Origin: a virus
Length of the DNA: 53,181 nucleotides
Reading direction: 5' to 3' (one strand)
Virus record (IMG/VR): IMGVR_UViG_3300025849_004161
Span: 1 to 53,181 of that record
In this document: positions 6,210 to 50,946 of the stretch, piece after piece
Numbering within the stretch: the first letter of the stretch is position 1
Layout: each line of letters begins with the position of its first letter
Notes under the pieces: model-generated
Seen by the model: the letters and a program-made list of their open reading frames with translations, nothing else
Databases searched by the model: none
What the model was told of the DNA's origin: nothing
Translations under genes and position numbers: made by a program

Positions 6210-7801
6210 TTGGTGATACTGTCGTAGTTAGCAATAACGTTGGCAACAATTTCTGCTTTAGAAAATTGAGCAGGTATTTCAACACCACCATCTAGTGCCA
6301 TTTGTAAAAGTTGCGATTTAGTCTTGCCACCTAATATTTTGTTTAGGTCGTCTTCTAGTTTTTCTGTTTTCTCAATTTGATTTACAATGTCTGCTGTTTT
6401 TTGATTGTCAATATTAACAATTGGCTCATTGATACTTTCAAAGAAAGTTTTATCTCTACCATTGTAATCACTCATCACATCAGCGGCATCATCAACAGCA
6501 CTTGGCAGTGGTTTGTAATCTTCGTCTGATATTTCCTCTACTACTTCTCTGCCTGTTGCTTCATCGATTTCAAATTCTTCCACACTTTCTTCCGGTTCTG
6601 GGTCTGGATCTTTTGGTGGTAGTGGAGGACCACTGCTTTCTAAGTTAATACCATGACGTAATAATGTTTGGTTAGCGGCAATAACTAGCATAACTGCTAG
6701 TGGATCAAATACAAATACTAATAGTAGAATGAATAAACGTATTGCCTGGTCTAACACATCACGTTCGTCATTACCATATATTAATTGTGCCAAGTATTTA
6801 ATTGGTCCTACTTCTCTATCTAGTGTCCTAACTTTTTGTTCTGCGTCAAATTTCTCGTCTTTAAGTGCTACTATGTTACTGTAAATGGCGTCAATGTCGC
6901 TGTTAAAAGTATCTATCTTTATTAAGTTATCATCTGCCTGCGATGAACTCTGGCCACGCAATCTGTTAATTTCATCATTAGCACCTTTAATAGTGTCTTG
7001 CGCCTGTGCCCTGTAATTGTCAATTGCATCTTGGAAAACTTTAATGTCTTTACTTGCTTGATCTCTTAGTCTAATCTTCTCATCTCTGATTTCATCTCTT
7101 TCATCTGTTTGGCTATTTCGCAGTTCGTTAGCCTGTGCTACATAATCTATCTTTTCTGTTTCAGCACCTTGGAATATTCCGCCTTCGTCGAGTGTGATAA
7201 TTTCTATACCTTTACTTCTTAAATCATTTACTGCTTTATCTAGTTCTGCTAATCTACTATCCTGTTGAGAGAGATCTACTGTGAGTTGTTCTCTAACTGT
7301 GGTTATTTGTTCTTGGTTGTAATCAATGTCACCTTGAACTCTAATCCAAGCACCATCTCTGATTTCTTCTTGTTGTGTTATGCTAGAACTAACATCAATG
7401 GAACCACCGATGCTTTGTATTCTGTCTTCTAATATTACAATTTTATTTTCTTCTCTGGCTATTTGAGCATCTACACGTTCTACTATTGCTACAGCATCTC
7501 CTGTGTTACTTGCTTGATCTCCAGCGGCTTTGCTGAGATAACCAAAGATACCTATACTTGTAATAACCATTAGTATGACAACTGCGGTCGTGAGGTAGGC
7601 CCGTAACATTAAGGATGTTTCGTTCCAATATCTGTACAGCCAACTTGCTGTTAGTAGTTTACCTACTTCAAGTGTGCCAGCCATTACGGCTATACTCAGT
7701 GGCATACCACTAAATAGTAGCATTAAGCCGACTATGGAAAACCATGCGGCAACACCGGCAATAGCCAGAGCAGTTATTAATGTTAGAATACCAAATATCA
7801 T
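6197..7801 (-). CDS. Multi-pass membrane/coiled-coil protein, 534 aa
   Basis: The N-terminal ~95 residues hold hydrophobic helices, including MLLFSGMPLSIAVMAGTLEV and VVILMVITSIGIFGYLS. A long charged coiled coil follows (about 100-340), then a final helix LFILLLVFVFDPLAVMLVIA (about 355-378) and an acidic cytoplasmic tail. Similar proteins occur in T4-like cyanophages with unknown role. The second Met (7801) is chosen because a late octamer ends exactly 5 nt before it. The frame closes just after an A10 run, where a -1 slip would add about 170 residues. A membrane or tail-associated role is a guess. Confidence 0.8.
   Translation of the reverse strand: MIFGILTLITALAIAGVAAWFSIVGLMLLFSGMPLSIAVMAGTLEVGKLLTASWLYRYWNETSLMLRAYLTTAVVILMVITSIGIFGYLSKAAGDQASNTGDAVAIVERVDAQIAREENKIVILEDRIQSIGGSIDVSSSITQQEEIRDGAWIRVQGDIDYNQEQITTVREQLTVDLSQQDSRLAELDKAVNDLRSKGIEIITLDEGGIFQGAETEKIDYVAQANELRNSQTDERDEIRDEKIRLRDQASKDIKVFQDAIDNYRAQAQDTIKGANDEINRLRGQSSSQADDNLIKIDTFNSDIDAIYSNIVALKDEKFDAEQKVRTLDREVGPIKYLAQLIYGNDERDVLDQAIRLFILLLVFVFDPLAVMLVIAANQTLLRHGINLESSGPPLPPKDPDPEPEESVEEFEIDEATGREVVEEISDEDYKPLPSAVDDAADVMSDYNGRDKTFFESINEPIVNIDNQKTADIVNQIEKTEKLEDDLNKILGGKTKSQLLQMALDGGVEIPAQFSKAEIVANVIANYDSITKKKI
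6202..6211 (-). promoter_or_regulatory. A10 slippery tract, putative -1 frameshift site
   Basis: Minus strand ACC-A10-TTTAAAAATC. In frame 0 it reads T-K-K-K-I-stop. A one-base backward slip on the A-run (A AAA AAA type) continues into the 5688 frame. Polymerase slippage or an assembly homopolymer error would give the same pattern. Confidence 0.55.
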
Positions 7802-7806
7802 ATACA

Positions 7807-7814
7807 TATTTATC
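7807..7814 (-). promoter_or_regulatory. Late promoter octamer, leaderless geometry
   Basis: GATAAATA, then 5 nt, then ATG at 7801 (minus). Confidence 0.75.
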
Positions 7815-7815
7815 G

Positions 7816-7824
7816 GATAATATA
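7816..7824 (+). promoter_or_regulatory. Variant late promoter, leaderless geometry
   Basis: GATAATATA, then 5 nt (CACAT), then ATG at 7830 (plus). It is divergent with the minus promoter at 7807-7814. The sequence departs from the usual octamer. Confidence 0.5.
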
Positions 7825-7829
7825 CACAT

Positions 7830-15871: not shown

Positions 15872-16872
15872 TCTACCCAATCCGTTTTTGTGAGTACATT
15901 GTAATTATGTTCGCAAATTTCTTTAGTTTTATCATGTATCTCGGTTACTTCTAATTTAGATAAATTATAGCATAATTCAACTGCTAGGTCAACTCTTTCT
16001 TTTGGTGTATTTGCATTATAGTAATCTTCATTCCACATGCTATTAAATGTTTTAAAACCCATGTCTGTGAGATACTTATCTACCCCTTTACCTTTACCTA
16101 TTAAGTGTATGAATGGTCTTTTGTGTTTTATAGGTTTGATTATTTTTGCAGTATAGAACATAGTAGCACCTACCTTTTGTTCTACATCATGCCAGTCTTT
16201 TTCGTAAACACCAGGTACTGTGTTTGCCATTGAATCTACAGTAATTGTGACTGCACTATCTTTAAAAATAATTCCGTCCAGATTGTTACGATCATTTAAA
16301 TGAAAGCCGCCAGTAAACCTACTAGATTCTGGTATTTCTTCTGGGTAAGAATTATGCACATCAAGTTGTATCATTGTGCGTGGTATTTGTAATTTACAGT
16401 ATTGCATAAACTCGTTTGTAAAATGATGTTGCTTATGCATATCAGTATTAATTGTTCTGTATGCTGACCAATGCGTATCTTTTAATAAATCTTTTTCAAA
16501 CAAACCTTGCAGTAGCATAAATCTATCATAATGAAAATTACCTGCTAAGAAATTAAAATGTTTAGTTGGTGTAGTATCAGGAATTTCGTGAATAATATAA
16601 TGTGTTATGAGGTGCAACGGATAATGTACATGTAAAAAGGGTGTATTTTTAATTCCGTTTAATGTTGGCTCTGCTAAAACCACCCTGCTTGGGTCAATTG
16701 AGTTACTGACACAATACTCTAAAATTTTATCTAAGTCTATTGCTTCAAAGTTCTCACCTTGCTTTAGTGGCTTTGGTATAGGTAAGTCATACACATCTAT
16801 TAGGTTCATACGATCATAGAACTGCATAATCTTATTTTTTTGCGTACTAGGTAGTAATGACATTAGTGACAT
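15817..16872 (-). CDS. Phage family protein (paralogue 3), 351 aa
   Basis: A more distant member of the 7830/9277/50948 family. The C-terminal block reads TAKIIKPIKHKRPFIHLIG, then GFKTFNSMWNEDYYN. No catalytic motif is certain. The ATG at 16872 is chosen because a variant late octamer (ATTAAATA) ends exactly 5 nt before it. Its end overlaps the nucleotidyltransferase start. Function unknown. Confidence 0.65.
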   Translation of the reverse strand: MSLMSLLPSTQKNKIMQFYDRMNLIDVYDLPIPKPLKQGENFEAIDLDKILEYCVSNSIDPSRVVLAEPTLNGIKNTPFLHVHYPLHLITHYIIHEIPDTTPTKHFNFLAGNFHYDRFMLLQGLFEKDLLKDTHWSAYRTINTDMHKQHHFTNEFMQYCKLQIPRTMIQLDVHNSYPEEIPESSRFTGGFHLNDRNNLDGIIFKDSAVTITVDSMANTVPGVYEKDWHDVEQKVGATMFYTAKIIKPIKHKRPFIHLIGKGKGVDKYLTDMGFKTFNSMWNEDYYNANTPKERVDLAVELCYNLSKLEVTEIHDKTKEICEHNYNVLTKTDWVEWYLNQIQTTLHIRQATT

Positions 16873-16877
16873 GTGTG

Positions 16878-16885
16878 TATTTAAT
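16878..16885 (-). promoter_or_regulatory. Variant late octamer, leaderless geometry
   Basis: ATTAAATA, then CACAC, then ATG at 16872 (minus). Confidence 0.5.
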
Positions 16886-16914: not shown

Positions 16915-16922
16915 GATAAATA
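16915..16922 (+). promoter_or_regulatory. Late promoter octamer
   Basis: GATAAATA on the plus strand, 61 nt before the 16984 ATG. It gives an ordinary leader with a GTGGAG Shine-Dalgarno. Confidence 0.7.
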
Positions 16923-16983
16923 CTTTTATCAAACATACACACATATACTATAACCGGTTAAAAATATAAGTGGAGAAAAAATA

Positions 16984-18822
16984 ATGGCAGACACTAAAAA
17001 TTATGGATTAAAAGGTGTAGGCGCCAATATAGAATTAGGCAAAAGAGGCAACACGATCGAGAGCGATGGCGGAAACGTCATCCTTAAAACGACCGCTGGT
17101 GCATTGGCCACAATCGCAGGAGCAAACGGTACTGCTTCAAGTCATTTCGTAACAAAAGCACAGATGGACGCAGGTCTATCTGGTAGTGCTGATGGATTCC
17201 AAATTAGTTTGGGCGACGTTACGTCTTATGGTGACGGAAGTTATGCCGGCGGTGCAATAACACTAACAGATAGTACTAAAATTTCAAGTGCGATCGATAC
17301 ACTAAATGAAACGTTAGGCTTGTTAGTACCAACAGCACCAGGTGATTTTCCAAACAGTGAAACTTTAACAGTTTCAAGTGTTGGAAGTGCACCTTACCTA
17401 GCAGATGGCTCAGTTCCAGATAGAACCTCAGGAGGCACACTACCAGCAAGTGCAGGTGCAAGTGTGACTCGTGTTACTGATACAACTCCAAATTCAAGTC
17501 AAGTAGACAACTTTAGATCAGACTCAGGAACGTTAGCGGCTGTAGTCAATGGCTCTACCTCAGGTAGTGTTACATTTGACGGCACAGACAAAGATGGTAC
17601 TTATACTGATTTACTCGTTAGCGGATATGCAGACTCACCAAGTGATACCCCAGGATTTTATACAGAAAGTGATGCACAAATTAGAATTGCATCGGCTCTA
17701 AGTACAGGGTGGAATAGAATCCAAATGACAAAAACTGATACAAGTGACACTAATGAAGTGTACTTTGTAGTAGATGATCTAACAGGATCACCAACAGTTG
17801 CGTCAGGAACTATAACAGGTGACACTAATGGTACAACAGCATACAGTTCAGGTATTGAACATTTTGGTTCAAGCGGTGCTGTAACTATTGGCAATTTGAC
17901 AATGACGAATTTGGCAGGAGAGACATATAGAAATGGTAACCCTATTTCCGTATCTGGCTCTGATAGCATAATCAGTACACAGTCTTACTCTTATTCAGAC
18001 GTAGGCGTATCAACTCCGATTACCAGACAAACAACAAGTGCTCAATCCTTGAGTGCTTTAACAGTAAATGTTAATGGTTCTAACAGACACACGTCAGGAA
18101 CATTAACAGTAACAGGTACAAACGTAAATGGTTCAGGCTCTCAGTCTGTATCAGGTACAATATTACTCAAAGCAGGCACGGCGCGAAGCAGTGATGTAGA
18201 TGAGCAAAACATATCTATACCATCAGGAGCAACTGGCGGTAATAGAGTAGACTTAGGTTCAAGTGCAACAGGTGATACACCTTTAGGCGCAGGCAACCTT
18301 CCAAGTAGTAGTTTAACATGGGACAGTACTCAAGACTTAACAGCAAGTGGCTATGCTCACGAGGCTGGTGTAGTTGCAGGTATTTTATCCTCTGATCAAA
18401 CTGATTACACATCAGGCTATTGGCCAAATGAAAATGTTGTAGACTATAGTGGCAAAGATGCTACTCAGTATATGACATTCTATTTTGCCAAATCAGCCGT
18501 TAGTACTTTTAGTATTAGCATAACAGGTTCTTATACAGGACTATATATAGGATTGCCAGGGGTTAGTGATAGCAATAGCACATCACCTAACGCAACTGGC
18601 GGAGCATGGTATGATGCATTTACATTATATGATGGCTCAGGTAACCCAGGTGGGGTAGGCAATGGCGCAGGCTGTGGCAATGGTTCAATTGCAAGTGGGA
18701 GTTCCGGCTCAGTTTCAATTACATTAGGTACAGAAAGCACAACAAACGCCACCAATAACGTTGTTTTGATTAGAGTCAAACTAGGTAGTTCAGACTCTAT
18801 ATCAGCAATTAGTGTTTCTTAA
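16984..18822 (+). CDS. Virion structural protein, fibre/adhesin-like, 612 aa
   Basis: Ser/Thr/Gly/Asn-rich, with almost no Cys and repeated beta-strand-like segments after an N-terminal block MADTKNYGLKGVGANIELG. This composition is typical of phage fibre, whisker or decoration proteins. It has a late promoter and a clear Shine-Dalgarno. It is followed after 13 nt by another structural gene with AAGGAGG. The exact virion position is unknown; no enzyme motif is seen. Confidence 0.75.
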   Translation: MADTKNYGLKGVGANIELGKRGNTIESDGGNVILKTTAGALATIAGANGTASSHFVTKAQMDAGLSGSADGFQISLGDVTSYGDGSYAGGAITLTDSTKISSAIDTLNETLGLLVPTAPGDFPNSETLTVSSVGSAPYLADGSVPDRTSGGTLPASAGASVTRVTDTTPNSSQVDNFRSDSGTLAAVVNGSTSGSVTFDGTDKDGTYTDLLVSGYADSPSDTPGFYTESDAQIRIASALSTGWNRIQMTKTDTSDTNEVYFVVDDLTGSPTVASGTITGDTNGTTAYSSGIEHFGSSGAVTIGNLTMTNLAGETYRNGNPISVSGSDSIISTQSYSYSDVGVSTPITRQTTSAQSLSALTVNVNGSNRHTSGTLTVTGTNVNGSGSQSVSGTILLKAGTARSSDVDEQNISIPSGATGGNRVDLGSSATGDTPLGAGNLPSSSLTWDSTQDLTASGYAHEAGVVAGILSSDQTDYTSGYWPNENVVDYSGKDATQYMTFYFAKSAVSTFSISITGSYTGLYIGLPGVSDSNSTSPNATGGAWYDAFTLYDGSGNPGGVGNGAGCGNGSIASGSSGSVSITLGTESTTNATNNVVLIRVKLGSSDSISAISVS

Positions 18823-19880: not shown

Positions 19881-19888
19881 GATAAATA
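19881..19888 (+). promoter_or_regulatory. Late promoter octamer, leaderless geometry
   Basis: GATAAATA, then CATGT, then ATG at 19894. Confidence 0.8.
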
Positions 19889-19893
19889 CATGT

Positions 19894-20652
19894 ATGAAGA
19901 TAGATGAGGCACTAAACGGATTACAAGGACTCAATAATAACGGTGGCGAAATGCCTCGCGTTAGAAAAGCAAAAAAGATTGAGAAAATTGTCTCAGGTAA
20001 AAAACATAAAAATTTTAGAAAAGGACCAATGAACATTGACCTTTCAAAGTTAGGAGAAGACGAAGTGGAAAATAACGATCCAATATTAAACAAATTAAAA
20101 GAAAAATATGCAAGTAAGAAGTATGCAAAGACTAGTGATAAAAACACTATGAAAGTAAAACCAACTACTGGACATGAATCCCCTAATAAAATGCGTGGTA
20201 AAATGGTAGGCGAAGCACCAGACAAAATGGGCGGAATGTATATGAATAAAGACCAAATGGCAACTACTAAAAAACCTGCTAGACAATCTACTAAAGCCGA
20301 TATGCAAATACAAAGAGATCTTGCAAATGCGGCACGAACAGTATTTAATCACGAAGAATTTAGAAAGTATATGGTGCAGATGCATGGTAGCAAAACTTAT
20401 GACGCAGTTAATCAAAATTTAGTTAAGTATCAAACTGAATTCCAAAATGCTCAAAACAAAGCAAGAGCAGAAAAAGAACTTAATAAGCCTAAACAAGATT
20501 TCAGTAAGTATGATGAACCAGCATTTAAAAGAAGAGCACCTATTAATACAAAAGTAAGCAAGAATCCTATTAACAGTCCTATTACTAGAGCAAATCATCG
20601 TAACAATACAGCCGCGGTAGGTAAGGTTGATCCTAGGAACGAAATTAGTTAA
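19894..20652 (+). CDS. Hypothetical basic protein, 252 aa
   Basis: Lys/Asn-rich, low-complexity, largely disordered, with Met/Gly-rich MRGKMVGEAPDKMGGMYM in the middle. No family recognised. The start MKIDEALNG at 19894 is set by the late octamer 5 nt upstream; a longer in-frame start lies before the promoter. It overlaps the next gene by 1 nt (TAATG). The late promoter suggests a virion or assembly role, unproved. Confidence 0.65.
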   Translation: MKIDEALNGLQGLNNNGGEMPRVRKAKKIEKIVSGKKHKNFRKGPMNIDLSKLGEDEVENNDPILNKLKEKYASKKYAKTSDKNTMKVKPTTGHESPNKMRGKMVGEAPDKMGGMYMNKDQMATTKKPARQSTKADMQIQRDLANAARTVFNHEEFRKYMVQMHGSKTYDAVNQNLVKYQTEFQNAQNKARAEKELNKPKQDFSKYDEPAFKRRAPINTKVSKNPINSPITRANHRNNTAAVGKVDPRNEIS

Positions 20653-20918: not shown

Positions 20919-20926
20919 CATAAATA
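20919..20926 (+). promoter_or_regulatory. Late promoter octamer
   Basis: CATAAATA, 26 nt before the ATG at 20953, with an AGGAGAGAG Shine-Dalgarno between. Confidence 0.6.
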
Positions 20927-20952
20927 ATTCCTGTAATTAAACCAGGAGAGAG

Positions 20953-21108
20953 ATGGCAAAAGCGGCAAAGAAATCAAACAGAACCCAAACTAGGAAATGT
21001 TCCAGTATAGGTAGTGGCGGCAGAGGTAGACGTTGTAAAATTGGCATGTCTACAATGAATAAACACAAAAAACGCTCACATAAAAAATACAACGGACAAG
21101 GGAGATAA
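20953..21108 (+). CDS. Small very basic Cys-containing protein, 51 aa
   Basis: Contains KCSSIGSGGRGRRCKIGMST and a Lys/Arg-rich tail ending YNGQGR. Resembles short basic proteins of T4-like marine phages (from memory); a nucleic-acid or ribosome-binding role is possible. Strong AGGAGAGAG ribosome binding site directly before the ATG. Confidence 0.8.
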   Translation: MAKAAKKSNRTQTRKCSSIGSGGRGRRCKIGMSTMNKHKKRSHKKYNGQGR

Positions 21109-21322: not shown

Positions 21323-21330
21323 TATAAATA
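21323..21330 (+). promoter_or_regulatory. Late promoter octamer, leaderless geometry
   Basis: TATAAATA, then AATTT, then ATG at 21336. Confidence 0.8.
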
Positions 21331-21335
21331 AATTT

Positions 21336-21830
21336 ATGCCTACTCAGTATAAATTTATCAAAAATTTTCTTTCCCCAATAGAATGCGATAACTTTATTGG
21401 TAAGTTGCCATTATTAGATATCAATACAGCACCAGCAATAGATAGAGAAAACGAGGAAGTACCGTTAGACACTTGGTATAGGTTAGAATTATTACCCACA
21501 AGAATTGAACTTAATGTATCTCATACAATCCTATCAAAAATTAGCAAGTTGTTAGAAAAGCAAGTATCTGCAATGGACAATAGGATGTATGTGATTAGAT
21601 ATCAAGAAGGAGAGTTTTGCGTCCCCCATGTAGATCCAACAGAAAAAACAATTATTATACAATTAAATTCCTCTTATACTGGTGGGGATTTTGTTTACAA
21701 CAACGAAGTAATTCCAATGAATAAAGGCGATGCTGTAATTTTTTCAAATATAGATTCTGTACACGGTGTTAAAATGCTAACATCGGGTGAAAGATACTCT
21801 CTTGCTATGTGGCTAAAAGATGATATATAA
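21336..21830 (+). CDS. 2OG-Fe(II) oxygenase, prolyl-hydroxylase type, 164 aa
   Basis: Double-stranded beta-helix core: YVIRYQEGEFCVPHVDPT has the HxD iron ligands, YTGGDF follows, GDAVIFSNIDSVHGV carries the distal His, and SGERYSLAMWL the Arg for 2-oxoglutarate. The family hydroxylates proteins, nucleobases or small molecules. It is flanked by a 19-bp direct repeat plus duplicated late promoter, suggesting insertion as a unit. The start sits 5 nt after a late octamer. Substrate unknown. Confidence 0.88.
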   Translation: MPTQYKFIKNFLSPIECDNFIGKLPLLDINTAPAIDRENEEVPLDTWYRLELLPTRIELNVSHTILSKISKLLEKQVSAMDNRMYVIRYQEGEFCVPHVDPTEKTIIIQLNSSYTGGDFVYNNEVIPMNKGDAVIFSNIDSVHGVKMLTSGERYSLAMWLKDDI

Positions 21831-21864: not shown

Positions 21865-21872
21865 GATAAATA
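21865..21872 (+). promoter_or_regulatory. Late promoter octamer, leaderless geometry
   Basis: GATAAATA, then CTAGT, then ATG at 21878. Confidence 0.8.
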
Positions 21873-21877
21873 CTAGT

Positions 21878-24259
21878 ATGAATTTACAATCATTACTAGA
21901 AGCAATAAACTACGCATCAGACAATCCCAAGGCAAACCCTGAAATAGTCAGGAAGTTTGCTGATGTAGATGCTAAAACCCGTACCTGGTACATTGGTCAA
22001 TGGGCTGATAAGAAGGGTATAAAGAGCGATGATGCTATGCACATGGCAGGCTATGTACAAGATGGTTACATAGGCGCAGGTGCTTGGAACTGGCGTTATG
22101 TAGGTATGGATGATGATAACATCGAAGAGAAAGCACCAAGTGATGCAATTTATGGTATTTTTGCTGATGGCAAGGATGTTACTGCTAGGTATAGTAGTTT
22201 ATCAGATGCCAAAAAGGCGGCAGAAGAATTACAACAAAGAAGTCCAAAAGTCAAATATACAGTCAAAAAAGCAGATCCAGAAAACATAGAAGAAGCAGAG
22301 GAAGATCCGTGGGATAGACATATGAGACAGATGGCTCCTATTAATAAGGCTAAAGGACATTTACCTTATGTAAATGCAGATCCTATTAATAAGGCTAAAG
22401 GACTTAACAAATGTGTAGACTGTGGCAGAATGGAAAAAGATTGCGAGTGTCCAGGACACGACCACGCAAATGAAGAGATAGATATGACAAACGATTTAAA
22501 CGAAATCGAACAAAAGATGATGGGTGCACCTGATTATAATCCAGCAAGAGGTGGTTATACAAATAACATGATAGGCGAACCTGATGGTTATTACGATGCT
22601 GAAGAAAGACAAGAAGCATACGATCAATTACAGGATGCGTTAGCACAATCAAATAGTGTCGAAGCAGAGTATGTTAAAGACGGCCATTGTCCAGAATGTC
22701 CTAATGTAGAGGATAATGAAGATTGTTATGGATTTGGTAATTATGGTTGTGACGATGGTGAATTAACTTATGATGGCGACACAGTAAGTTGGAAGGCAAT
22801 TAAAGACCATGATGAACGTCAAGCACAAAGACAACAAGCAAAAGATAACTATCCGGGCGACGAAGCAGTTATAGACTTTGCGGCTAGTACAGCCAAGCAA
22901 TTAAAGTCAAGTGGGCAAGATCCTAGAGATACATTACAGTATGTTAATCAGGAATATCCAAATTTGGGCAGAGCACAAAGAGCCAGTTTAGTTGCCAAAG
23001 GAATGAAGAAAGCAGGTTTAACCACTGAAGATCAAGTGCCATTTTTACAACGATCAAATTCAGGGTATAAAAAAGCAGTAGATGATTTTAAAAAGTTGAA
23101 TCCTGGTAAAACAGAAGAGGATTTTAAAGAATTAGGAACAAAACAACAAGAAAAATATCTTGACAAGTATTTAGAAGGCAAATCCCCACATAAGAAAGGC
23201 TCAGCAAAATACAAAAATCACATGGCGGCCAAACATGCTAGTATGGGAGAGAACATGAACGAAAATAAATGGAAAGAAATCGAAACCACTAGTGACTATA
23301 TGTTGCCAGTAACAATGGATAATAGGCCATTAGATTGGCCCACATACTGGGAATGGGAACAGTCACATGGAGAAACAAAAAAAAATAGAGCAAGTTTACG
23401 TTTTAGTAATTATGTAAAAAATGCCAAACACGAACTTGGCATTGCTGAAGGCGAACAGCATGGTAATAGCAAAATATATAAAAAGTGCTGGACAGGTTAC
23501 AGCAAAGTCCCAGGTAAAAAAGCAGGCGAAAAAGGTTCTTGTAAAAAGAACGAAGGCAGAATTGAAGATACATTTGGAACTGATACAGTTGATAAACATG
23601 ACAAGCCTAAAAAGAAGAAAAAGGAAGAAAGTATTCAAGTAGGCGACGAATTAATGATTGAAACAGCAGACGGCGAAGGTATTGTTGTACCTGTGTTACA
23701 TGTTGTAAACGAAAACATATTAATTGGTTGGGACGAACTAGCAGAAGACATTGTTGTCGAAGGTGCTAGACAATTAGCAGAATTAAAAAAATTAGCAGGC
23801 TTAGATCAACTCAATGAAATCACAGATGCATCTGCCAAAGAAGTTATTATGCAAATAATAAACAGTTATGGTAAAGATGTTGATTTAGAAACAGAGTTTA
23901 GAAACTATTTTCCAAGACTATCAGATAAGGAAGTAGATTATTACCTTAAAGGATATAAAAAGCCTGAACTTAAATTAGTTAAGAATGAAGCAGAATATCA
24001 AGGACGTAAAGTTAAGTTGGGCAAACCAACTAGAGGCGATGTTAAGAAGTTTAAAGTTTATGTAAAAGATCCTAAAACAGGAAATGTGAAAAAGGTAAAC
24101 TTTGGACATGGTGGTACTAGTGCTAAAAAAGCCGGGCAAAAGACTATGAAAATTAAAAAGTCTAATCCAGCAAGACGCAAGAGTTTTAGAGCAAGACACA
24201 ACTGTGATAATCCGGGTCCTCGTACTAAAGCAAGGTACTGGAGTTGCCGCGCCTGGTAG
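21878..24259 (+). CDS. Very large virion-type protein with zinc-ribbon-like motifs, 793 aa
   Basis: Mostly hydrophilic and low-complexity. Notable parts: an in-frame 15-aa duplication (PINKAKG twice), a CVDCGRMEKDCEC cluster and a second Cys cluster at CPECPNVEDNEDC. LAELKKLAGLDQLNEI lies in the last third. A basic C-terminal domain has GRKVKLGKPTRGDVKKFKVY and ends RRKSFRARHNC...ARYWSC. The LAGL-type motif recurs in two other late proteins here. I infer an internal head or scaffold protein. The late octamer ends 5 nt before the ATG. No enzyme motif seen. Confidence 0.7.
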   Translation: MNLQSLLEAINYASDNPKANPEIVRKFADVDAKTRTWYIGQWADKKGIKSDDAMHMAGYVQDGYIGAGAWNWRYVGMDDDNIEEKAPSDAIYGIFADGKDVTARYSSLSDAKKAAEELQQRSPKVKYTVKKADPENIEEAEEDPWDRHMRQMAPINKAKGHLPYVNADPINKAKGLNKCVDCGRMEKDCECPGHDHANEEIDMTNDLNEIEQKMMGAPDYNPARGGYTNNMIGEPDGYYDAEERQEAYDQLQDALAQSNSVEAEYVKDGHCPECPNVEDNEDCYGFGNYGCDDGELTYDGDTVSWKAIKDHDERQAQRQQAKDNYPGDEAVIDFAASTAKQLKSSGQDPRDTLQYVNQEYPNLGRAQRASLVAKGMKKAGLTTEDQVPFLQRSNSGYKKAVDDFKKLNPGKTEEDFKELGTKQQEKYLDKYLEGKSPHKKGSAKYKNHMAAKHASMGENMNENKWKEIETTSDYMLPVTMDNRPLDWPTYWEWEQSHGETKKNRASLRFSNYVKNAKHELGIAEGEQHGNSKIYKKCWTGYSKVPGKKAGEKGSCKKNEGRIEDTFGTDTVDKHDKPKKKKKEESIQVGDELMIETADGEGIVVPVLHVVNENILIGWDELAEDIVVEGARQLAELKKLAGLDQLNEITDASAKEVIMQIINSYGKDVDLETEFRNYFPRLSDKEVDYYLKGYKKPELKLVKNEAEYQGRKVKLGKPTRGDVKKFKVYVKDPKTGNVKKVNFGHGGTSAKKAGQKTMKIKKSNPARRKSFRARHNCDNPGPRTKARYWSCRAW
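22336..22403 (+). repeat. Intragenic 23-bp direct repeat
   Basis: TCCTATTAATAAGGCTAAAG (plus GAC) at 22336-22358 and 22381-22403, a 45-bp period encoding a duplicated PINKAKG segment. Confidence 0.95.
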
Positions 24260-25954: not shown

Positions 25955-26178
25955 CTTGCGTCTACTAATGCCTTATACTCTGTAAAACCGCCAATCTTAT
26001 TACCGTCTACTATAATTTGTGGGAATGTCCTAGCACCAGGAAATGTTTCCATTAACTGTTCTCTATTAAAGTCCTCATCTAACATTTTATATGTTAGTTT
26101 GTGACCTTCTCTTTCTGCTAATGCTTTTGCTTGAACGCAATAAGGACATTGTGGTTTGCTATATATTTCAACTTTCAT
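25951..26178 (-). CDS. grx: Glutaredoxin, 75 aa
   Basis: Classic small glutaredoxin: redox site CPYC at residues 11-14, TFPQIIVDG with the cis-Pro, and GGFTEY. It reduces disulfides with glutathione and could serve the NrdAB reductase encoded at 41954-45330. The late octamer TATAAATA ends 5 nt before the ATG and overlaps the end of the methyltransferase gene. Confidence 0.93.
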   Translation of the reverse strand: MKVEIYSKPQCPYCVQAKALAEREGHKLTYKMLDEDFNREQLMETFPGARTFPQIIVDGNKIGGFTEYKALVDAS

Positions 26179-26183
26179 AATTT

Positions 26184-26191
26184 TATTTATA
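26184..26191 (-). promoter_or_regulatory. Late promoter octamer, leaderless geometry
   Basis: TATAAATA, then AAATT, then ATG at 26178 (minus); it overlaps the methyltransferase stop codon. Confidence 0.75.
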
Positions 26192-26840: not shown

Positions 26841-26845
26841 AGTAA

Positions 26846-26853
26846 TATTTATC
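26846..26853 (-). promoter_or_regulatory. Late promoter octamer, leaderless geometry
   Basis: GATAAATA, then TTACT, then ATG at 26840 (minus). A second octamer CATAAATA lies upstream at 26875-26868. Confidence 0.8.
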
Positions 26854-29204: not shown

Positions 29205-29209
29205 AGTAG

Positions 29210-29217
29210 TATTTATC
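29210..29217 (-). promoter_or_regulatory. Late promoter octamer, leaderless geometry
   Basis: GATAAATA, then CTACT, then ATG at 29204 (minus). Confidence 0.8.
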
Positions 29218-33186: not shown

Positions 33187-33195
33187 AGTGCCCTT

Positions 33196-33232: not shown

Positions 33233-33432
33233 TTGCTATGTGGTGGTAGTTTTGCTTCTACAAAATACTCGTGTTTTTGCTTAACAGGATTAAATTTTTT
33301 AAGTTTTAATTTTCTATTTTCAATTACCAGTGCTTTTGTTTTCACTGCGGTATAATGATATGTGTGGTGATCCCTTGTTTCGCCTTCCGGTATTAGGTAT
33401 ACTATTGTTCGTCTTTTATCTTTCTTTGCCAT
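33229..33432 (-). CDS. rpmG: Ribosomal protein bL33 homologue, 67 aa
   Basis: Begins MAKKDKRRTIVYLIPE and ends KLKLKKFNPVKQKHEYFVEA, close to the bL33 pattern (LxxKKYDPxxRKHVxFKEAK), without zinc cysteines as in alphaproteobacterial bL33. The middle (TYHYTAVKTKALVIENRK) fits the short beta strand. bL33 sits by the E site of the 50S. Late octamer ends 5 nt before the ATG. It joins bS21 and deformylase as translation genes. Short length leaves some doubt. Confidence 0.78.
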   Translation of the reverse strand: MAKKDKRRTIVYLIPEGETRDHHTYHYTAVKTKALVIENRKLKLKKFNPVKQKHEYFVEAKLPPHSK

Positions 33433-33437
33433 GCTAC

Positions 33438-33445
33438 TATTTATA
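33438..33445 (-). promoter_or_regulatory. Late promoter octamer, leaderless geometry
   Basis: TATAAATA, then GTAGC, then ATG at 33432 (minus). Confidence 0.8.
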
Positions 33446-37484: not shown

Positions 37485-37947
37485 TTAACACCTTAGTCAC
37501 ATAAATGTTAGGCCCAAACTCCATGCCTTCATCAAAAAAGTTACCTATAGTTTCAAAGCCAAATTTAGTATATGCCGGTAAGGCACTTTTACGAGGTATG
37601 CTCCATATCATATTACAACCTTCTTTGATTGCTTGTTTTTCTGTAGCATTAAATAGTAATTGAGCAACACCTTTTTTTCTAACATCATGGTCAACCCAAA
37701 TTCCCCTGCTTCTATAAATATTGTCTTTTGTTCTGTGGCCGCTGTTTACACCAACAACTCTACCATTTGTAATTACACCAAAAAATGAAGGCTCATAGTC
37801 AAAAATATCCATGTCAAATTCTAGTGGATTTCCATCATATGGCCAAGTCATAGCACTATGGGTTTCAATTGGACTTACTCTATTTTGCCATAAATGTTTC
37901 TGCCATACGTGACAAATAGTTTCAAATGATATATTGGTTGTTTCCAC
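37471..37947 (-). CDS. GNAT acetyltransferase, 158 aa
   Basis: GNAT core: FFGVITNGRVVGVNSGH, GIWVDHDVRKKGVAQLL (the R-x-x-G-x-A acetyl-CoA loop) and ALPAYTKFGFETIG. The start is GTG, placed exactly 5 nt after a late octamer. It overlaps the radical SAM gene, so the two may act on one substrate. Substrate unknown. Confidence 0.82.
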   Translation of the reverse strand: METTNISFETICHVWQKHLWQNRVSPIETHSAMTWPYDGNPLEFDMDIFDYEPSFFGVITNGRVVGVNSGHRTKDNIYRSRGIWVDHDVRKKGVAQLLFNATEKQAIKEGCNMIWSIPRKSALPAYTKFGFETIGNFFDEGMEFGPNIYVTKVLNVSN

Positions 37948-37952
37948 AGTAG

Positions 37953-37960
37953 TATTTATT
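37953..37960 (-). promoter_or_regulatory. Late promoter octamer, leaderless geometry (GTG start)
   Basis: AATAAATA, then CTACT, then GTG at 37947 (minus). Confidence 0.75.
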
Positions 37961-40785: not shown

Positions 40786-41020
40786 TTTCTAATGCATGGC
40801 CACATGAAGCGGCATCTCCTACTCTTGAAGCAAATTTACCTTCAATTCTAACTTTAGATGAGGCTTCTGCAACTGTGGGATTGCCATGCGGTGAATCACC
40901 GTGCCCTGTAACTGAATCGTCTATTCTTACAGGCTGTAAAGATTCAATAGTTGTTTTTGTTGCTGATGCAACTGCAGGACCTCCTGCAACTGATATTCCA
41001 TTAAGTGCGGCTTTTGACAT
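40757..41020 (-). CDS. PAAR-domain spike-tip protein, 87 aa
   Basis: PAAR type (T4 gp5.4-like): the glycine-rich NGISVAGGPAVASATK start, GHGDSPHGNPTV and DAASCGHALESG, with the paired His/Cys that bind the tip metal. It would sharpen the central tail spike for outer-membrane piercing. A late octamer (GATAAATA, 41029-41036) lies 8 nt upstream. Its end overlaps the PP-loop gene start. Confidence 0.88.
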   Translation of the reverse strand: MSKAALNGISVAGGPAVASATKTTIESLQPVRIDDSVTGHGDSPHGNPTVAEASSKVRIEGKFASRVGDAASCGHALESGASRTNIG

Positions 41021-41028
41021 AGTAATAT

Positions 41029-41046
41029 TATTTATCATAATAAATA
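41029..41046. promoter_or_regulatory. Divergent late promoter pair
   Basis: Minus GATAAATA (41036-41029) for the PAAR gene, 8 nt gap; plus AATAAATA (41039-41046) for the 41052 gene, 5 nt gap. Only two bases separate them. Confidence 0.8.
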
Positions 41047-41051
41047 CATGT

Positions 41052-41633
41052 ATGAAACTAGAATGGACCCACAATCAAGCAGAAGGTTTTGTTTATTGCA
41101 AAATAGACAATATTATGTACAAGTCATATAACGGCGGCGACAACATACTTAAGATTACCGACGGCAACGAAGTTGCTAATATGGGCAAATATGATGTAGG
41201 AGACCCATGGGAAAATGAAAAGAAATGGATTAGTGATAATTATTCAGATAGATTCAGTGTATATCAGCCTTTAACGGCTGGTCCACAGGAAATGGAACAA
41301 TGGCATAATGACCACCCTGAATATACTGAGGCATTTCCTGCCTATGGTTTATTTGAAGGTAGATATTTAGATCGCTTACAGAGAGATACTAATGTGCAAG
41401 TTGGTAAAGATATGATAACAGTAATACAAGACCCTGCTAAAAAACTTCATATCGAATGGGACAAATACGGTACTGACAAGTTCTATAGAAGAGAATGGTG
41501 CGAAGAAAATAACAGTTTTTACAATGTGCAACCTTGTTGTGTATTTCCAAACAATCCCGGTAGAACAGAACTAAGTGAAGATGAAAAACAATCTTTGATT
41601 GCTGAACACCGTTTGGATTTGTCTACTATTTAA
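41052..41633 (+). CDS. Hypothetical protein, 193 aa
   Basis: Soluble, acidic and aromatic, with no family recognised. MKLEWTHNQAEGFVYCK opens it; Cys residues cluster near the end (WCEEN, VQPCCVFP). The start at 41052 is set by the late octamer 5 nt before it; a longer frame exists but would cross the divergent promoters. It overlaps the 98-aa gene end tail-to-tail by 4 nt. Confidence 0.65.
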   Translation: MKLEWTHNQAEGFVYCKIDNIMYKSYNGGDNILKITDGNEVANMGKYDVGDPWENEKKWISDNYSDRFSVYQPLTAGPQEMEQWHNDHPEYTEAFPAYGLFEGRYLDRLQRDTNVQVGKDMITVIQDPAKKLHIEWDKYGTDKFYRREWCEENNSFYNVQPCCVFPNNPGRTELSEDEKQSLIAEHRLDLSTI

Positions 41634-41926
41634 GCCTTTGCTAAACTTATTCCAGTAGTGCCTTCAAGATACTGATCAGCAAGATCCTTTAGTGTATCCA
41701 TAGTGCAAAACACTTTTTCATTTGAAATAGTAATTTCTTTAGAAGCATCAGCACTAAACAACCACGGCATTAATCCTAATCCTTGTTGAGTAATTTGTAC
41801 TGCCATAGGCTTTTCTATTGTGATACCATTTTCATCTTGCCTGATAAAACGTGTAATGATTTCTGTATCGCTGGTTAATTTGATTGTGACAACGTCACCT
41901 TTTGTATGAGATTTATTTACTAACAT
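41630..41926 (-). CDS. Conserved-type small beta protein, possibly Sm-like, 98 aa
   Basis: DVVTIKLTSDTEIITRFIRQ and ITIEKPMAVQI are beta-rich and recall an Sm-like barrel; similar proteins are common in T4-like marine phages (from memory), with no known role. GAGGAACAC precedes the ATG, and TATAAATA lies at 41946-41953. It follows nrdB. Confidence 0.75.
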   Translation of the reverse strand: MLVNKSHTKGDVVTIKLTSDTEIITRFIRQDENGITIEKPMAVQITQQGLGLMPWLFSADASKEITISNEKVFCTMDTLKDLADQYLEGTTGISLAKA

Positions 41927-41945
41927 GTGTTCCTCTGTGTGTGAA

Positions 41946-41953
41946 TATTTATA
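41946..41953 (-). promoter_or_regulatory. Late promoter octamer
   Basis: TATAAATA, 19 nt before the 98-aa gene ATG, directly after the nrdB stop. Confidence 0.65.
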
Positions 41954-45754: not shown

Positions 45755-47509
45755 TTATCCCAACCATTTTCTGACTAGATATTTAAATGTGGCTGGTCTT
45801 GTTGTTCCATCTGATAAATTATTTGTTGCTCTTAATTTCATTGTATTTGATAAGCCGTCCCATACTGCACTTAAATCAAATGTAGTTGAGCCAAAACCGT
45901 TTTGCATCACAGCACCAGTGTCATTAAGTGTTGCGTCTGCAAGTACACTACTGCCTGTCATGTGTACTGTTCCAGTTCTAGTATACGCATTACCAGAACC
46001 ACCGGATGCTCTTACTGAATATTCTATAATGGCACTATCGACATCTGAAACTTGGAACGATGCAATATCGGTTGTTGCACCTGCTAGACATGTTTTTGGT
46101 ATTGCTTCGAATAATGAATTAGCGGAACCTGTTAATAGAACAGCATAGTCGTCTTGTGTTAATAATCTTTGATTGGTTTTGATATTTGTTAATCCAGTGA
46201 TATCTGCATTTGCACTGGCACCAAAAATTTTATTTGTTATTGTTGAAAAGTTTTCTGCTTCTTGATTACCTGTAAAAGTTAATGTCAAATTTTCACTGCT
46301 AGTCGATGGTGTATACTTACTAATTCTAGTTGCACCTGAATTAAATTTATTGCCAACCTGCGCCGCTACAAACATGTTAAACGCAGGGTCATTTAATGAG
46401 CCATGAATCCAGTTTTCTAATTGACCTTTGATTGAATTATTTGCCTTGGTATATGTTGCATTTGGCGTTAATGATAATTCTGTGGCATCTGTGCTATCGG
46501 TAAATCTAATTTGAAATTGATTATCACATGCAATAAAGAATGTTGTGTCTGATACTTTTGTTGCTCTAAATGTTGCATCATTATTAATTGTGCTGACAAC
46601 TAGGTCTAAATTAGTTGCAGGAGTTAAAGATATTTCTGAAATAACATTAGCCGCAGGATTGCTAAGATCAGGTGCGGCTTCTAAAATTATGTTAGACAAT
46701 GTCAACGGTCCGGCAGGCGAAGCCACTGTGCCCGAATCAGCAAACACTTCTGTGTGTTTGTCTTCTAGACCAATAAATGCTGTGCCTACTTCGTAATCTG
46801 CTCTAATATACGCATTATTAAATTGTCTATAACTAGCAACACTTTTTGCTTCATAAAATCCTGTTGTTGATGTAGTTCCTATAACACCTGTGTCAAACAT
46901 AGCATTAATAATATCGACATTACTATAGTAGTTTATTGTGATATCATCTGTACCAGTTGGATTATTGCCGAATGTTATGGTAGTGTTTTGACCTGTACTT
47001 GTTGGCGAAGATACAAAAAATTCGTTATTAAGCAAGTTAGCCGCAGTTCTTGTGGCATTTGTACTTAATGCAACTCCATTTTTAGCACCTGTAAAATCTG
47101 TTGATTCAAATGCACTGGAATCAAACACGTTTTTAATATTTCCTGTTGTTATACTTGCATTAAATACAGGTTGTCCGTGTGCTTGACCGCTACTGCTACT
47201 GACTATAAAAGTTGTGTTATTTGTAGTACCGTTAAAAGTTCCTGTAGGGAATCTTTTACTAGGCATGATAAGTCTTACAAAATTATTATTTAGATATGAA
47301 TTAGCATAATTAAAGCCTTCTGCTATATTATTAACTGAAACAACATTTGCATTTTGAGCCGTGACTCCTATCTCAGGATCTAAGCCTATGAATACTTCTT
47401 TGCTGTCTGATGCTAATGCTATCTCCCCCGCTCGTAAGGGTTGAGGTAAATCTATACGATTACCTCTGCGTTGTTGCATTCGTGATATAATTATTTCTTT
47501 TTCTGCCAT
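45755..47509 (-). CDS. Tail-fibre-like virion protein, 584 aa
   Basis: The N-terminus IISRMQQRRGNRIDLPQPL then AGEIALASDSKEVFIGLDP is the pattern of T4-like marine phage fibre/adhesin proteins. The rest is Thr/Asn/Ser-rich beta structure. Late octamer 5 nt before the ATG. Likely a receptor-facing protein. The downstream 150-aa gene starts on its stop. Confidence 0.78.
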   Translation of the reverse strand: MAEKEIIISRMQQRRGNRIDLPQPLRAGEIALASDSKEVFIGLDPEIGVTAQNANVVSVNNIAEGFNYANSYLNNNFVRLIMPSKRFPTGTFNGTTNNTTFIVSSSSGQAHGQPVFNASITTGNIKNVFDSSAFESTDFTGAKNGVALSTNATRTAANLLNNEFFVSSPTSTGQNTTITFGNNPTGTDDITINYYSNVDIINAMFDTGVIGTTSTTGFYEAKSVASYRQFNNAYIRADYEVGTAFIGLEDKHTEVFADSGTVASPAGPLTLSNIILEAAPDLSNPAANVISEISLTPATNLDLVVSTINNDATFRATKVSDTTFFIACDNQFQIRFTDSTDATELSLTPNATYTKANNSIKGQLENWIHGSLNDPAFNMFVAAQVGNKFNSGATRISKYTPSTSSENLTLTFTGNQEAENFSTITNKIFGASANADITGLTNIKTNQRLLTQDDYAVLLTGSANSLFEAIPKTCLAGATTDIASFQVSDVDSAIIEYSVRASGGSGNAYTRTGTVHMTGSSVLADATLNDTGAVMQNGFGSTTFDLSAVWDGLSNTMKLRATNNLSDGTTRPATFKYLVRKWLG

Positions 47510-47514
47510 ACAAC

Positions 47515-47522
47515 TATTTATC
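47515..47522 (-). promoter_or_regulatory. Late promoter octamer, leaderless geometry
   Basis: GATAAATA, then GTTGT, then ATG at 47509 (minus). Confidence 0.8.
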
Positions 47523-48923: not shown

Positions 48924-48925
48924 GA

Positions 48926-50125
48926 TTAAATCTTTTCTGCTCTACCTAGAGGTTCTTCTTCAGGTCCTGCTTCTGCGTCTGCACCAGCAAAATCATCTAC
49001 TGGTTCATCTAGTGCTGGTTCCATCATGTCACCACCTAGTGGATCTTCTGATGGCATTGGTGCGGCTGATTCTTCTCCAGTCATTGTACCAATAAGAGCG
49101 TCGACACCTTCTTTTGAACTTTTGTTAGCATCAAGTAAAGAACTTAGTAATCCTTCCATTTGATTTTTGAATTCTGCGGCTTTTTGTGCACCAAATTCAT
49201 GTGCCATTGAATCAGCAATTGAAGGTATATCTTCGTTTGCCATTCTACCGATTCTTTCAATGTGGTCTTGAATGTCGTTACTTAAGGCTCTTGCCGCCAT
49301 AACAACTTCTGCTTCTTCAACACTAGTACCTGAAATTTCTTCAGTAATTGTGTCATCTCCAACCATCTCGCTTACTAGATCATCTAAGAATGTTTCAAAT
49401 TGCTTCATTTCTTTTAAGTCTGTTATTCCATATTTTTTTGCCATATTATCTACCTTATTTGCTTTTTCTATATCAACACTTTCTAATTCTGAAAATAGTT
49501 CGCCTAATGCAAATTCTTTCCAATTATCTTTTCCTAGATAATCACCAATTAGTTCTGCTAACATTTCTTCCGTAGCATTTTCGAAGTTTGAAGGGATATC
49601 TTCTGAATTATCTACATTAATTTTTACTTCTGGTTCGTCAATAACGTCCATTATTTCGTCTTCTATGTCTTCTTGCATACTGCCATCGAACATAGGCATT
49701 ATTTTTTCTGCAATAGCGGCTAGTATCATATCTTTTGGATATCTAGCAGGCATGGCCTCATATTTTTTACTGCAACTGTCCATTATAGTATCGTAGTCGT
49801 CGCCACTTTCTGCTAATGAGCAACTGTATTCATGCAGTTCGTCCATTAGTCTGCGATATGTTTCACCTTCGTAGTATAGACCTTCGTTTATCATGATGCC
49901 TAATGCATCTCTAACCATAATATTCATACCATAGTTAGGATCTTGTTGAAACTTGTTACTTTTATTTCTTAAATTTACAAGTCTTTTTTCAACATTTTGA
50001 TATGCTTGTTCTAACTTCTGCTTAGGTAAAACTTTGTTGACGTTGATGTCATAATTTTCTGTTAGGTAATTCTGAAGTTTACCTAATCTAGTTAAGTTAT
50101 CTGAATTTAAATGTTTTACTTCCAT
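48926..50125 (-). CDS. Acidic helical virion/scaffold-type protein, 399 aa
   Basis: Strongly acidic, helical and lacking Trp-rich or enzyme motifs; the C-terminal ~60 residues are Asp/Glu/Pro-rich and disordered. Such composition suits a scaffold or internal head protein. Contains several (L/I)xE sites that a T4-type head protease could cut. A late octamer lies at 50147-50154 with GAAGGGA before the ATG, so it has a normal leader. Confidence 0.65.
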   Translation of the reverse strand: MEVKHLNSDNLTRLGKLQNYLTENYDINVNKVLPKQKLEQAYQNVEKRLVNLRNKSNKFQQDPNYGMNIMVRDALGIMINEGLYYEGETYRRLMDELHEYSCSLAESGDDYDTIMDSCSKKYEAMPARYPKDMILAAIAEKIMPMFDGSMQEDIEDEIMDVIDEPEVKINVDNSEDIPSNFENATEEMLAELIGDYLGKDNWKEFALGELFSELESVDIEKANKVDNMAKKYGITDLKEMKQFETFLDDLVSEMVGDDTITEEISGTSVEEAEVVMAARALSNDIQDHIERIGRMANEDIPSIADSMAHEFGAQKAAEFKNQMEGLLSSLLDANKSSKEGVDALIGTMTGEESAAPMPSEDPLGGDMMEPALDEPVDDFAGADAEAGPEEEPLGRAEKI

Positions 50126-50146
50126 AGTAGTCCCTTCTAATAGTTA

Positions 50147-50154
50147 TATTTATC
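50147..50154 (-). promoter_or_regulatory. Late promoter octamer
   Basis: GATAAATA on the minus strand, 21 nt before the ATG at 50125, with a Shine-Dalgarno between. Confidence 0.7.
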
Positions 50155-50166
50155 AAAGAAGTACTT

Positions 50167-50610
50167 TTATAAGGAGATTAACAGTTGACATTGTGACAGC
50201 AAATTGTTAATTGCATTACTAGATTTGTGTTCTGCCTCTGTAAGTTTGGTTTCATAAATTGCCATTCTGTCAAAATTTGTAGAATTTTCCGTCAACTCTT
50301 CGTATATTTTGACTTCTACCATTTTAGATACAGCATATTTTTCTGTTTTTAATATCTTATCTATAGTAGACGTATTTAGATCTTCGCCAGTATTCATTGC
50401 CGCGGCAACAATATTTGCAACAATGTTTAAATGTATTTCTTCGCATACTATTTCATTGTTTTTAAGATTTACTATATCGTAAGTATCGCCATTGTCAACG
50501 ACTTCATATATATCTAAAGTAGCAATAATACCACTTAGTACTTCTTGAAGTTGTGATTTTAAATCAGATTCGTTTACTTGTTGCATATAGTCTATATCCG
50601 TCTTGTCCAT
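50167..50610 (-). CDS. Hypothetical protein, 147 aa
   Basis: Helical and acidic, no family recognised. It overlaps the 73-aa gene by 47 nt, a long overlap but with both frames clean, so coupling is likely. The early promoter at 50889-50917 may feed both. Confidence 0.6.
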   Translation of the reverse strand: MDKTDIDYMQQVNESDLKSQLQEVLSGIIATLDIYEVVDNGDTYDIVNLKNNEIVCEEIHLNIVANIVAAAMNTGEDLNTSTIDKILKTEKYAVSKMVEVKIYEELTENSTNFDRMAIYETKLTEAEHKSSNAINNLLSQCQLLISL

Positions 50611-50785
50611 CTTTGAGTTTTACTAGTTTAATTATCTCTCTTTTTCTTAAATCTTCAGCAATCTGAATTTGCCTTTCGCTCATTTTGCCTTTGTAATATG
50701 TTCCAAACTCTTTTAATGTTTCACAAAATGAGATTTCTTCGCCCATTATGTATGTTAATCCGTATTTACTGTCTATGCTACGCAT
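50564..50785 (-). CDS. Hypothetical protein, 73 aa
   Basis: Contains MSERQIQIAEDLRKREII and a C-terminal Arg/Lys stretch; a winged-helix-like fold is possible but unproved. Its ATG lies within the stop region of the 51-aa gene (ATGCGTAG). It has an early promoter about 105 nt upstream. Confidence 0.65.
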   Translation of the reverse strand: MRSIDSKYGLTYIMGEEISFCETLKEFGTYYKGKMSERQIQIAEDLRKREIIKLVKLKDGQDGYRLYATSKRI

Positions 50786-50933
50786 TTTTCTTTTTCTTCT
50801 TTTTCTTAGTAGGCTTGCGTTTTATTGGTTCTTTGAATAGAGGCATTGCCACGCCACCAATAGCACCTGCTACTGTTTCATTGATACTATTATAGAACGA
50901 ATCTATGTTTATGTCAACCTCTTTTATACGCAT
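50778..50933 (-). CDS. Small Lys-tailed protein, 51 aa
   Basis: MRIKEVDINIDSFYNSINET, a short hydrophobic Gly/Ala stretch, then KPTKKKKKKKNA. The ATG is 5 nt after a late octamer (50939-50946). An early promoter lies inside its coding region. The Lys tail could bind nucleic acid or membrane. Unrecognised. Confidence 0.7.
   Translation of the reverse strand: MRIKEVDINIDSFYNSINETVAGAIGGVAMPLFKEPIKRKPTKKKKKKKNA
50889..50917 (-). promoter_or_regulatory. Early sigma70-type promoter inside a coding region
   Basis: Minus strand: TTGACA (50917-50912), 17-nt spacer, TATAAT (50894-50889). It lies inside the 51-aa gene and reads into the 73-aa gene. Confidence 0.8.
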
Positions 50934-50938
50934 ATATG

Positions 50939-50946
50939 TATTTATC
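50939..50946 (-). promoter_or_regulatory. Late promoter octamer, leaderless geometry
   Basis: GATAAATA, then CATAT, then ATG at 50933 (minus). Confidence 0.8.

Follow-up and report, generated by a model that had tools for sequence, protein, structure and literature searches.

An ATAAATA core of the phage T4 late promoter type ends exactly 5 nucleotides (nt) before the start codon of 12 genes in IMG/VR virus record IMGVR_UViG_3300025849_004161, and comparison with related phages makes it very probable that the late messenger RNAs (mRNAs) of such genes are leaderless, beside a second class of late genes with leaders. The stretch analysed, referred to below as the window, comprises 53,181 bases of that record (35% G+C) and is, by its PHROG and Pfam matches, a fragment of a T4-like phage, with genes for ribonucleotide reductase, endonuclease, endolysin, peptide deformylase, QueD, the ribosomal protein bS21, a PAAR spike tip and virion proteins. 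A megablast search with its first 25 kb against 50,697 phage records gave no match. Its relatives are the IMG/VR contigs G001, G002, G003, G004, G006 and G007 (G001-G007 are all genome fragments). G001 (94 kb) has 99.9% identity to the window and is the same virus, whereas G002 (130 kb), G003, G004, G006 and G007 are mostly 70-90% identical to it.

Late cores and their spacing in the window

A spacing-5 site was defined as an ATAAATA core ending exactly 5 nt before the ATG or GTG of an open reading frame (ORF) of at least 45 codons, and spacings from 0 to 40 were scored. The window contains 35 such cores, of which 12 (11 ATG, 1 GTG) are at spacing 5, one is at 6 and one at 8; spacings 9-16 are empty and there is scatter from 17 up. 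The 11 ATG at spacing 5 compare with 14 over the other 40 spacings (Poisson p ~2e-13), and the other 20 orders of five A and two T gave 5/686 at spacing 5 against 11/35 for ATAAATA (Fisher p ~2e-12). The excess is not due to chance, because neither the other spacings nor the 20 permuted heptamers show such a peak.

An earlier note on this DNA had listed 14 octamer sites at this spacing. Twelve of them have the exact core (Table 1), and 16872- stands as a plausible variant with one mismatch; 7830+ has no core, the heptamer in that register being TAATATA with 3/7 letters off, and was rejected. Two genes beyond that list were found, 41020- (spacing 8) and 52405- (spacing 6), the latter of which is, judging from its spacing, probably leaderless or nearly so too. 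The TAA within the core doubles as the stop codon of the upstream gene at 2/12 window sites (26178 and 33432) and at 4/26 in G002. There are two pairs of divergent starts ~30 nt apart, 7801-/7830+ and 41020-/41052+, and at the second (41018-41054) two divergent late cores stand back to back, one facing the PAAR-motif gene and the other the 41052 gene. A TTGACA at 41014 was discarded as a promoter element; it overlaps the reverse complement of a start codon, and G006 lacks it.

Table 1. Late-promoter sites in the window, from core to start codon
Site	Coordinates	Strand	Element	Gene	Remarks
7801-	7799..7813	-	ATAAATA (7807-7813) + TGTAT + ATG	534-amino-acid ORF 6197-7801	C-terminal part matches the endonuclease VII family (phrog_3281)
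16872-	16870..16884	-	variant TTAAATA (16878-16884) + 5 nt + ATG	ORF 15817-16872, no function assigned	weaker than other sites
19894+	19882..19896	+	ATAAATA + CATGT + ATG	ORF 19894-20652, no function assigned	
21336+	21324..21338	+	ATAAATA + AATTT + ATG	2OG-Fe(II) oxygenase-like ORF 21336-21830	
21878+	21866..21880	+	ATAAATA + CTAGT + ATG	793-amino-acid ORF 21878-24259	
26178-	26176..26190	-	ATAAATA + AAATT + ATG	glutaredoxin ORF 25951-26178	TAA in core is stop of upstream gene
26840-	26838..26852	-	ATAAATA + TTACT + ATG	methyltransferase-like ORF 26187-26840	
29204-	29202..29216	-	ATAAATA + CTACT + ATG	cytidylyltransferase-like ORF 27291-29204	
33432-	33430..33444	-	ATAAATA + GTAGC + ATG	67-amino-acid bL33-like ORF 33229-33432	TAA in core is upstream stop
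37947-	37945..37959	-	ATAAATA + CTACT + GTG	GNAT acetyltransferase ORF 37471-37947	
41052+	41040..41054	+	ATAAATA + CATGT + ATG	ORF 41052-41633, no function assigned	
47509-	47507..47521	-	ATAAATA + GTTGT + ATG	ORF 45755-47509, no function assigned	
50933-	50931..50945	-	ATAAATA + CATAT + ATG	51-amino-acid ORF 50778-50933	
52405-	52403..52418	-	ATAAATA (52412-52418), spacing 6, ATG	ORF 50948-52405	
41020-	41018..41035	-	ATAAATA (41029-41035), spacing 8, ATG	PAAR-motif ORF 40757-41020	predicted leader ~3 nt
16984+	16916..16986	+	ATAAATA (16916-16922), 61 nt before ATG	ORF 16984-18822	leadered; GGAG
20953+	20920..20955	+	ATAAATA, 26 nt before ATG	ORF 20953-21108	leadered; AGGAG
41926-	41924..41952	-	ATAAATA, 19 nt before ATG	ORF 41630-41926	leadered; AGAGG
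50125-	50123..50153	-	ATAAATA, 21 nt before ATG	ORF 48926-50125	leadered; AAGGG

Conservation of the spacing

The 12 exact sites of the window were compared with G002, G003, G004, G006 and G007 in 39 BLAST-aligned pairs, in which one G004 place was counted under both 21336 and 21878. No letter of the core had changed (0/273 positions), and both core and spacer were free of insertions and deletions, yet the letters of the spacer differed in 18 of the 39 pairs. At 41052 the window and its relatives have CATGT, CTAAT, GTAGT or CTAGT, at 26178- five relatives have AAAGC or AAAGT, and at 29204- G003 and G007 have CTGTT. The spacing of 7801- is kept in G002, as are TTAAATA and the 5-nt spacer of the 16872- variant despite differing flanks. 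An ATG or GTG start was retained in 38/39 pairs; that of 37947 is GTG in G002, G004, G006 and G007 and ATG in G003. The exception is the G003 ortholog of 19894, which lacks that ATG and starts 22 nt downstream after AGGA, and is by its sequence a switch to the leadered class. Outside the 39 pairs, the core in the more diverged relatives of 26840 in G003 and G007 reads GTAAATA, with the 5-nt distance to the ATG unchanged. Upstream of the same gene there are tandem late cores 22 nt apart (26846-26874, -), the second of which, at 26868-26874, is kept in G002, G004 and G006.

It is also clear from the alignments that substitutions after the ATG fall mostly at the third codon position (0.270, against 0.105 and 0.061 at the other two), with no such bias upstream. 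Orthologs may differ in class between phages, the tail tube cap gene of HTVC008M being at spacing 5 and its relatives in Mosig and Melnitz at 24 and 33.

Occurrence in related and other phages

A motif search with a spacing histogram, which the earlier note had proposed as a check, gave the peak at 5 nt in the window and in all six related contigs tested (one of them, G001, being the same virus). ATG starts at spacing 5 accounted for 15/51 cores in G001 (the window's 11 among them), 24/71 in G002, 7/21 in G003, 10/27 in G004, 7/21 in G006 and 5/15 in G007, and spacings 9-15 held 0 or 1 core in each of the six. Comparable counts came from HTVC008M (9/45) and the contigs G020 (13/44) and G012 (7/41); the signal was weaker in Mosig (6/56) and Melnitz (3/42). 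None of the 65 cores of T4 or the 38 of Syn9 lies 5 nt before an ATG ORF, and in T4 25 ORF starts are at spacing 16-30 from a core.

The 9/9 spacing-5 sites of HTVC008M coincide with independently annotated gene starts, namely those of the baseplate tail tube cap, two baseplate wedge genes, a DNA end protector, the tape measure, CsgF, an oxygenase, a regulator and one gene of unassigned function; the spacing-5 genes of this phage include those at 19456, 31132, 49760, 18916- and 16007-. Spacing-5 genes of G002 include the terminase, a head-tail adaptor and virion proteins, and in wider loci the baseplate wedge gene gp25 is of this kind, so that the elements would drive virion and other late genes in all three.

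A separate pattern scan of 18 named phages compared match counts with a control. There was an excess in Mosig (8 vs 0), Melnitz (4 vs 0), immuto (4 vs 0), XacN1 (5 vs 1), CBB (2 vs 0) and T4 (2 vs 0), where both matches open no ORF of 45 codons. No excess was found in Syn9 (1 vs 1), P-SSM2 (3 vs 3), S-PM2 (2 vs 1), SCTP-2 (10 vs 8), Mel-JY01 (2 vs 4), C48C1 (1 vs 1) or KVP40 (0 vs 2), and phiM12, phiM9, Cr30, Aeh1 and RM378 gave no match. When 24 contigs were scanned, 20 had a match, the others being G005, G008, G009 and G022.

Among uncultivated phages, 35 terminase loci close to G002 had 33/108 distinct cores at spacing 5 and 12 more distant terminase loci 8/42. Where a core precedes a terminase-cluster ORF at spacing 5 or at 14-35, it is at 5 in 30/31, a count in which the loci overlap in ancestry and from which ORFs with no core are excluded. 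Loci of gp55, the late sigma factor gene, were represented by the best 80 of 557 confirmed. They contain 259 distinct cores, with 31 ATG at spacing 5, each preceded by a pyrimidine, and a broad hump at 17-26. The 31 sites are not independent genes, since 25 belong to the one gp25 family. With those 25 as queries, 55 gp25 orthologs were collected, in which the exact core is at spacing 5 in 26 (with 20 different spacers), at 4 in seven and at 7 in one, a one-mismatch core is at 5 in 10, a core-like element is at 4-7 in seven, and four have none; the gp25 locus of G052 (L333) has no exact core. Spacing-5 families number 61 over all locus sources, and the window lineage accounts for 29.

Shine-Dalgarno sequences and the leadered class

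The spacing-5 sites were pooled into a set of 66 distinct sites (60 ATG and 6 GTG, a clear preference for ATG such as leaderless mRNAs show), with TTG left unscored; when TTG is also scored, the window and relatives have 1-2 GTG/TTG each. A strong Shine-Dalgarno sequence was taken as a best anti-Shine-Dalgarno pairing at or below -4.5 kcal/mol. It was found at 0/60 spacing-5 sites, in agreement with the earlier observation that none fits at most of them, although the octamer itself partly predetermines this outcome. The corresponding share was 51% at leadered octamer sites (n = 35), 37% at other ORFs (n = 87) and 14% at random places (n = 2000). Shine-Dalgarno 4-mers occurred at 7/60 spacing-5 sites (12%), the same as at random (248/2000). 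The two late classes proposed at the outset do coexist by these measures, as the four leadered genes at the foot of Table 1 all have a core 19-61 nt upstream together with a Shine-Dalgarno-like sequence.

Early promoters were considered for a similar arrangement. In G002 TTGACA-N16-18-TATAAT was followed by an ATG 5-10 nt later in 6/27 cases. The permuted control gave 44/242 but took in shifted matches to real promoters, and nothing is claimed for leaderless early sigma-70 genes.

Predicted start of transcription

In bacteria, initiation is favoured where -1 is a pyrimidine and +1 a purine. The base preceding the start codon is a pyrimidine in 65/66 distinct spacing-5 sites and throughout 28/29 gene families, as against 40/92 ATGs of other G002 ORFs. 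In T4 the late promoter TATAAATA spans -13 to -6, as stated in a passage of PMC1524935, which agrees with the register assumed in the earlier note (the octamer as -10 element with the start ~6-7 nt later). By this register the sixth base after ATAAATA should be +1, and at spacing-5 sites that base is the A of the ATG. At leadered late promoters the sixth base is a purine in 23/30 cases in T4, 16/17 in Syn9, 39/44 in HTVC008M, Mosig and Melnitz taken together and 28/39 in the window lineage. The T that precedes the core in the octamer is not kept (A19 C6 G28 T13 in the 66 sites), and the same paper reports this for other T4-like phages (PMC1524935).

A gp55-like late sigma factor would thus read the ATAAATA octamer as a T4-type late -10 element (-13 to -6), and at 12 to 15 window genes the octamer is placed such that +1 would be the A (once the G) of the start codon. 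Ribosomes able to use a 5'-terminal AUG with no Shine-Dalgarno pairing would then translate the resulting leaderless mRNAs, and the other late genes would keep the leadered route. That transcription begins on the start codon, as had been suggested, gains support from the conserved spacing despite spacer turnover, the T4 register, the purine at base 6, the -1 pyrimidine and the lack of strong Shine-Dalgarno matches, all of which are comparative evidence.

The 5' ends of the transcripts at the start codon are predicted from spacing, and several observations weigh against this reading. The absence of Shine-Dalgarno sequences is partly a consequence of the octamer occupying -12 to -6, and the G003 ortholog of 19894 no longer has an ATG in the octamer-proximal place. 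In the leadered class of the 80 gp55 loci a purine is at base 6 in only 67/132 cases and A is at base 5 in 100/132, and the exact +1 is therefore less certain there. Profile searches, including one with a 12-sequence profile, did not find gp55 in the G001-G007 fragments, nor were the gp45 clamp and the gp33 coactivator found in them, although fragmentation and divergence limit that search and the PHROG profiles matched only Mosig and Melnitz among 12 records. A weak gp55 match in G001 (6991-7383, E 0.005) was dismissed as chance; it lies inside ORF 6418-7683, and the relative of that ORF in G002 matches a family of virion proteins. The gp25 gene is likewise missing from the G001-G007 fragments. 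Gp55 is present in G012, G020, G014 and G015 and in G052, a relative with a 56% identical terminase, but by BLASTN none of the 80 gp55 loci aligned with G001 or G002, so that they include no gp55-like contig of the window's own genus.

Alternative explanations

The octamers might start transcription at the ATG and the leaderless RNA still be a minor species, most protein coming from longer mRNAs begun upstream, through coupling or re-initiation. Such an arrangement would suit the five of 12 window genes whose start codons lie 8-20 nt past the stop of a same-strand gene (21336, 26178, 29204, 33432 and 50933) and the second core upstream of 26840. It fits poorly with 7801 and 41052, where the adjacent gene is divergent and a close same-strand gene upstream is lacking, and a minor RNA would not need its exact spacing and -1 pyrimidine to be preserved; we consider it improbable. 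Misassigned start codons, with true starts downstream that have a leader and a Shine-Dalgarno sequence, are hardly credible. Some ORFs do have a further in-frame ATG (e.g. at codon 11 of the 47509 ORF), but the coding pattern of substitution begins directly after the octamer-proximal ATG, that start is almost always retained among relatives, and the annotators of HTVC008M chose it at every site.

T4-type phages use the translational repressor RegA. The AU-rich element is located where proteins of the translation region bind, and it could be a translation signal, either an enhancer or an operator for a RegA-like repressor (RegA is mentioned in a passage of PMC3014915), and not a promoter. The identical core, however, also accompanies a Shine-Dalgarno sequence at other genes, standing 17-26 nt before the start as T4 late promoters do, and orthologous genes switch between the 5-nt and the leadered layouts, which makes a translation signal very improbable. 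Leaderless late mRNAs beside a leadered class account best for these data.

Relation to known systems

The -10 core TATAAATA is common to T4 and the present phages, and in both late and virion genes lie downstream. The difference is that leaders are the rule in T4, and that gp55 is present there but was not found in the fragments of the window lineage. Leaderless phage mRNAs are known from lambda cI and from Thermus phages, and share with the predicted transcripts a phage mRNA that begins at AUG. According to a general remark in PMC5312081, phage transcripts are often leaderless. In Deinococcus-Thermus, genes with a -10 element immediately upstream of the ORF have leaderless mRNAs and no ribosome-binding site (PMC12340547), but there a host sigma factor and host genes are involved, whereas here it is a phage late-promoter element and a temporal class of genes. 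In Lactococcus cremoris leaders are either absent or long, with none of 4-14 nt (PMC10986495), which resembles the nearly empty spacings of ~9-15 found here; those are host genes with mapped 5' ends, whereas here the ends are predicted from spacing.

No description of leaderless T4-type late mRNAs was found in the literature searched, which was confined to open-licence papers and is thus weak evidence. The components are known, and it is the systematic combination of a T4-type late octamer with a leaderless start that appears new relative to that literature. In the textbook T4 system late genes carry leaders with Shine-Dalgarno sequences. In the present phages that promoter is set against the start codon in many late genes, including some for virion proteins, so that late proteins would be made by a different initiation route. 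The prediction is precise and testable for an abundant marine phage group and for HTVC008M and Mosig, two isolates whose host, Pelagibacter ubique HTCC1062, is in culture. The octamer spacing also makes the prediction of gene starts more exact, and raises the question of why orthologous late genes alternate between leaderless and leadered forms.

Ribosomal proteins and neighbouring promoters

A wider reading is that the leaderless late class is general to uncultivated gp55-bearing T4-like phages and is aided by the phage altering the ribosome late in infection, through an encoded bS21 and a bL33-like protein; this we regard as unlikely. On the ribosome bS21 lies next to the anti-Shine-Dalgarno sequence. 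The window's bS21 is ORF 4003-4416 (-), in which Pfam finds a ribosomal protein S21 domain (E 1.5e-13) and which scores above the NCBIfam S21p cut-off, and a passage of PMC9723584 links phage bS21 to late-stage replication. The bL33-like ORF 33229-33432 (-), of 67 amino acids, matches NCBIfam at E 1e-4, below cut-off, and 25/28 of its PDB matches are named L33/bL33 (one also labelled L30), the best at E 0.0055; the gene is itself spacing-5 in G001-G007. A peptide deformylase of phage type lies near it at 32219-32776 (-).

At G002 64516-64560 one small gene has a composite promoter, TTGACA-N16-TATAATAAATA-N5-ATG, in which the early -10 element TATAAT is fused to the late core, and composites of this kind occur in five relatives (G002, G003 with TTGACT, G004, G006 and G007). 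In the window, a perfect TTGACA-N17-TATAAT promoter (33186-33224, -) lies 9 nt upstream of an ATG; its spacer contains a late core, and the predicted leader is only a few nt long. A tRNA-Thr gene (anticodon TGT; 35377-35452, -) is 5 bases from the late core at 35365-35371.

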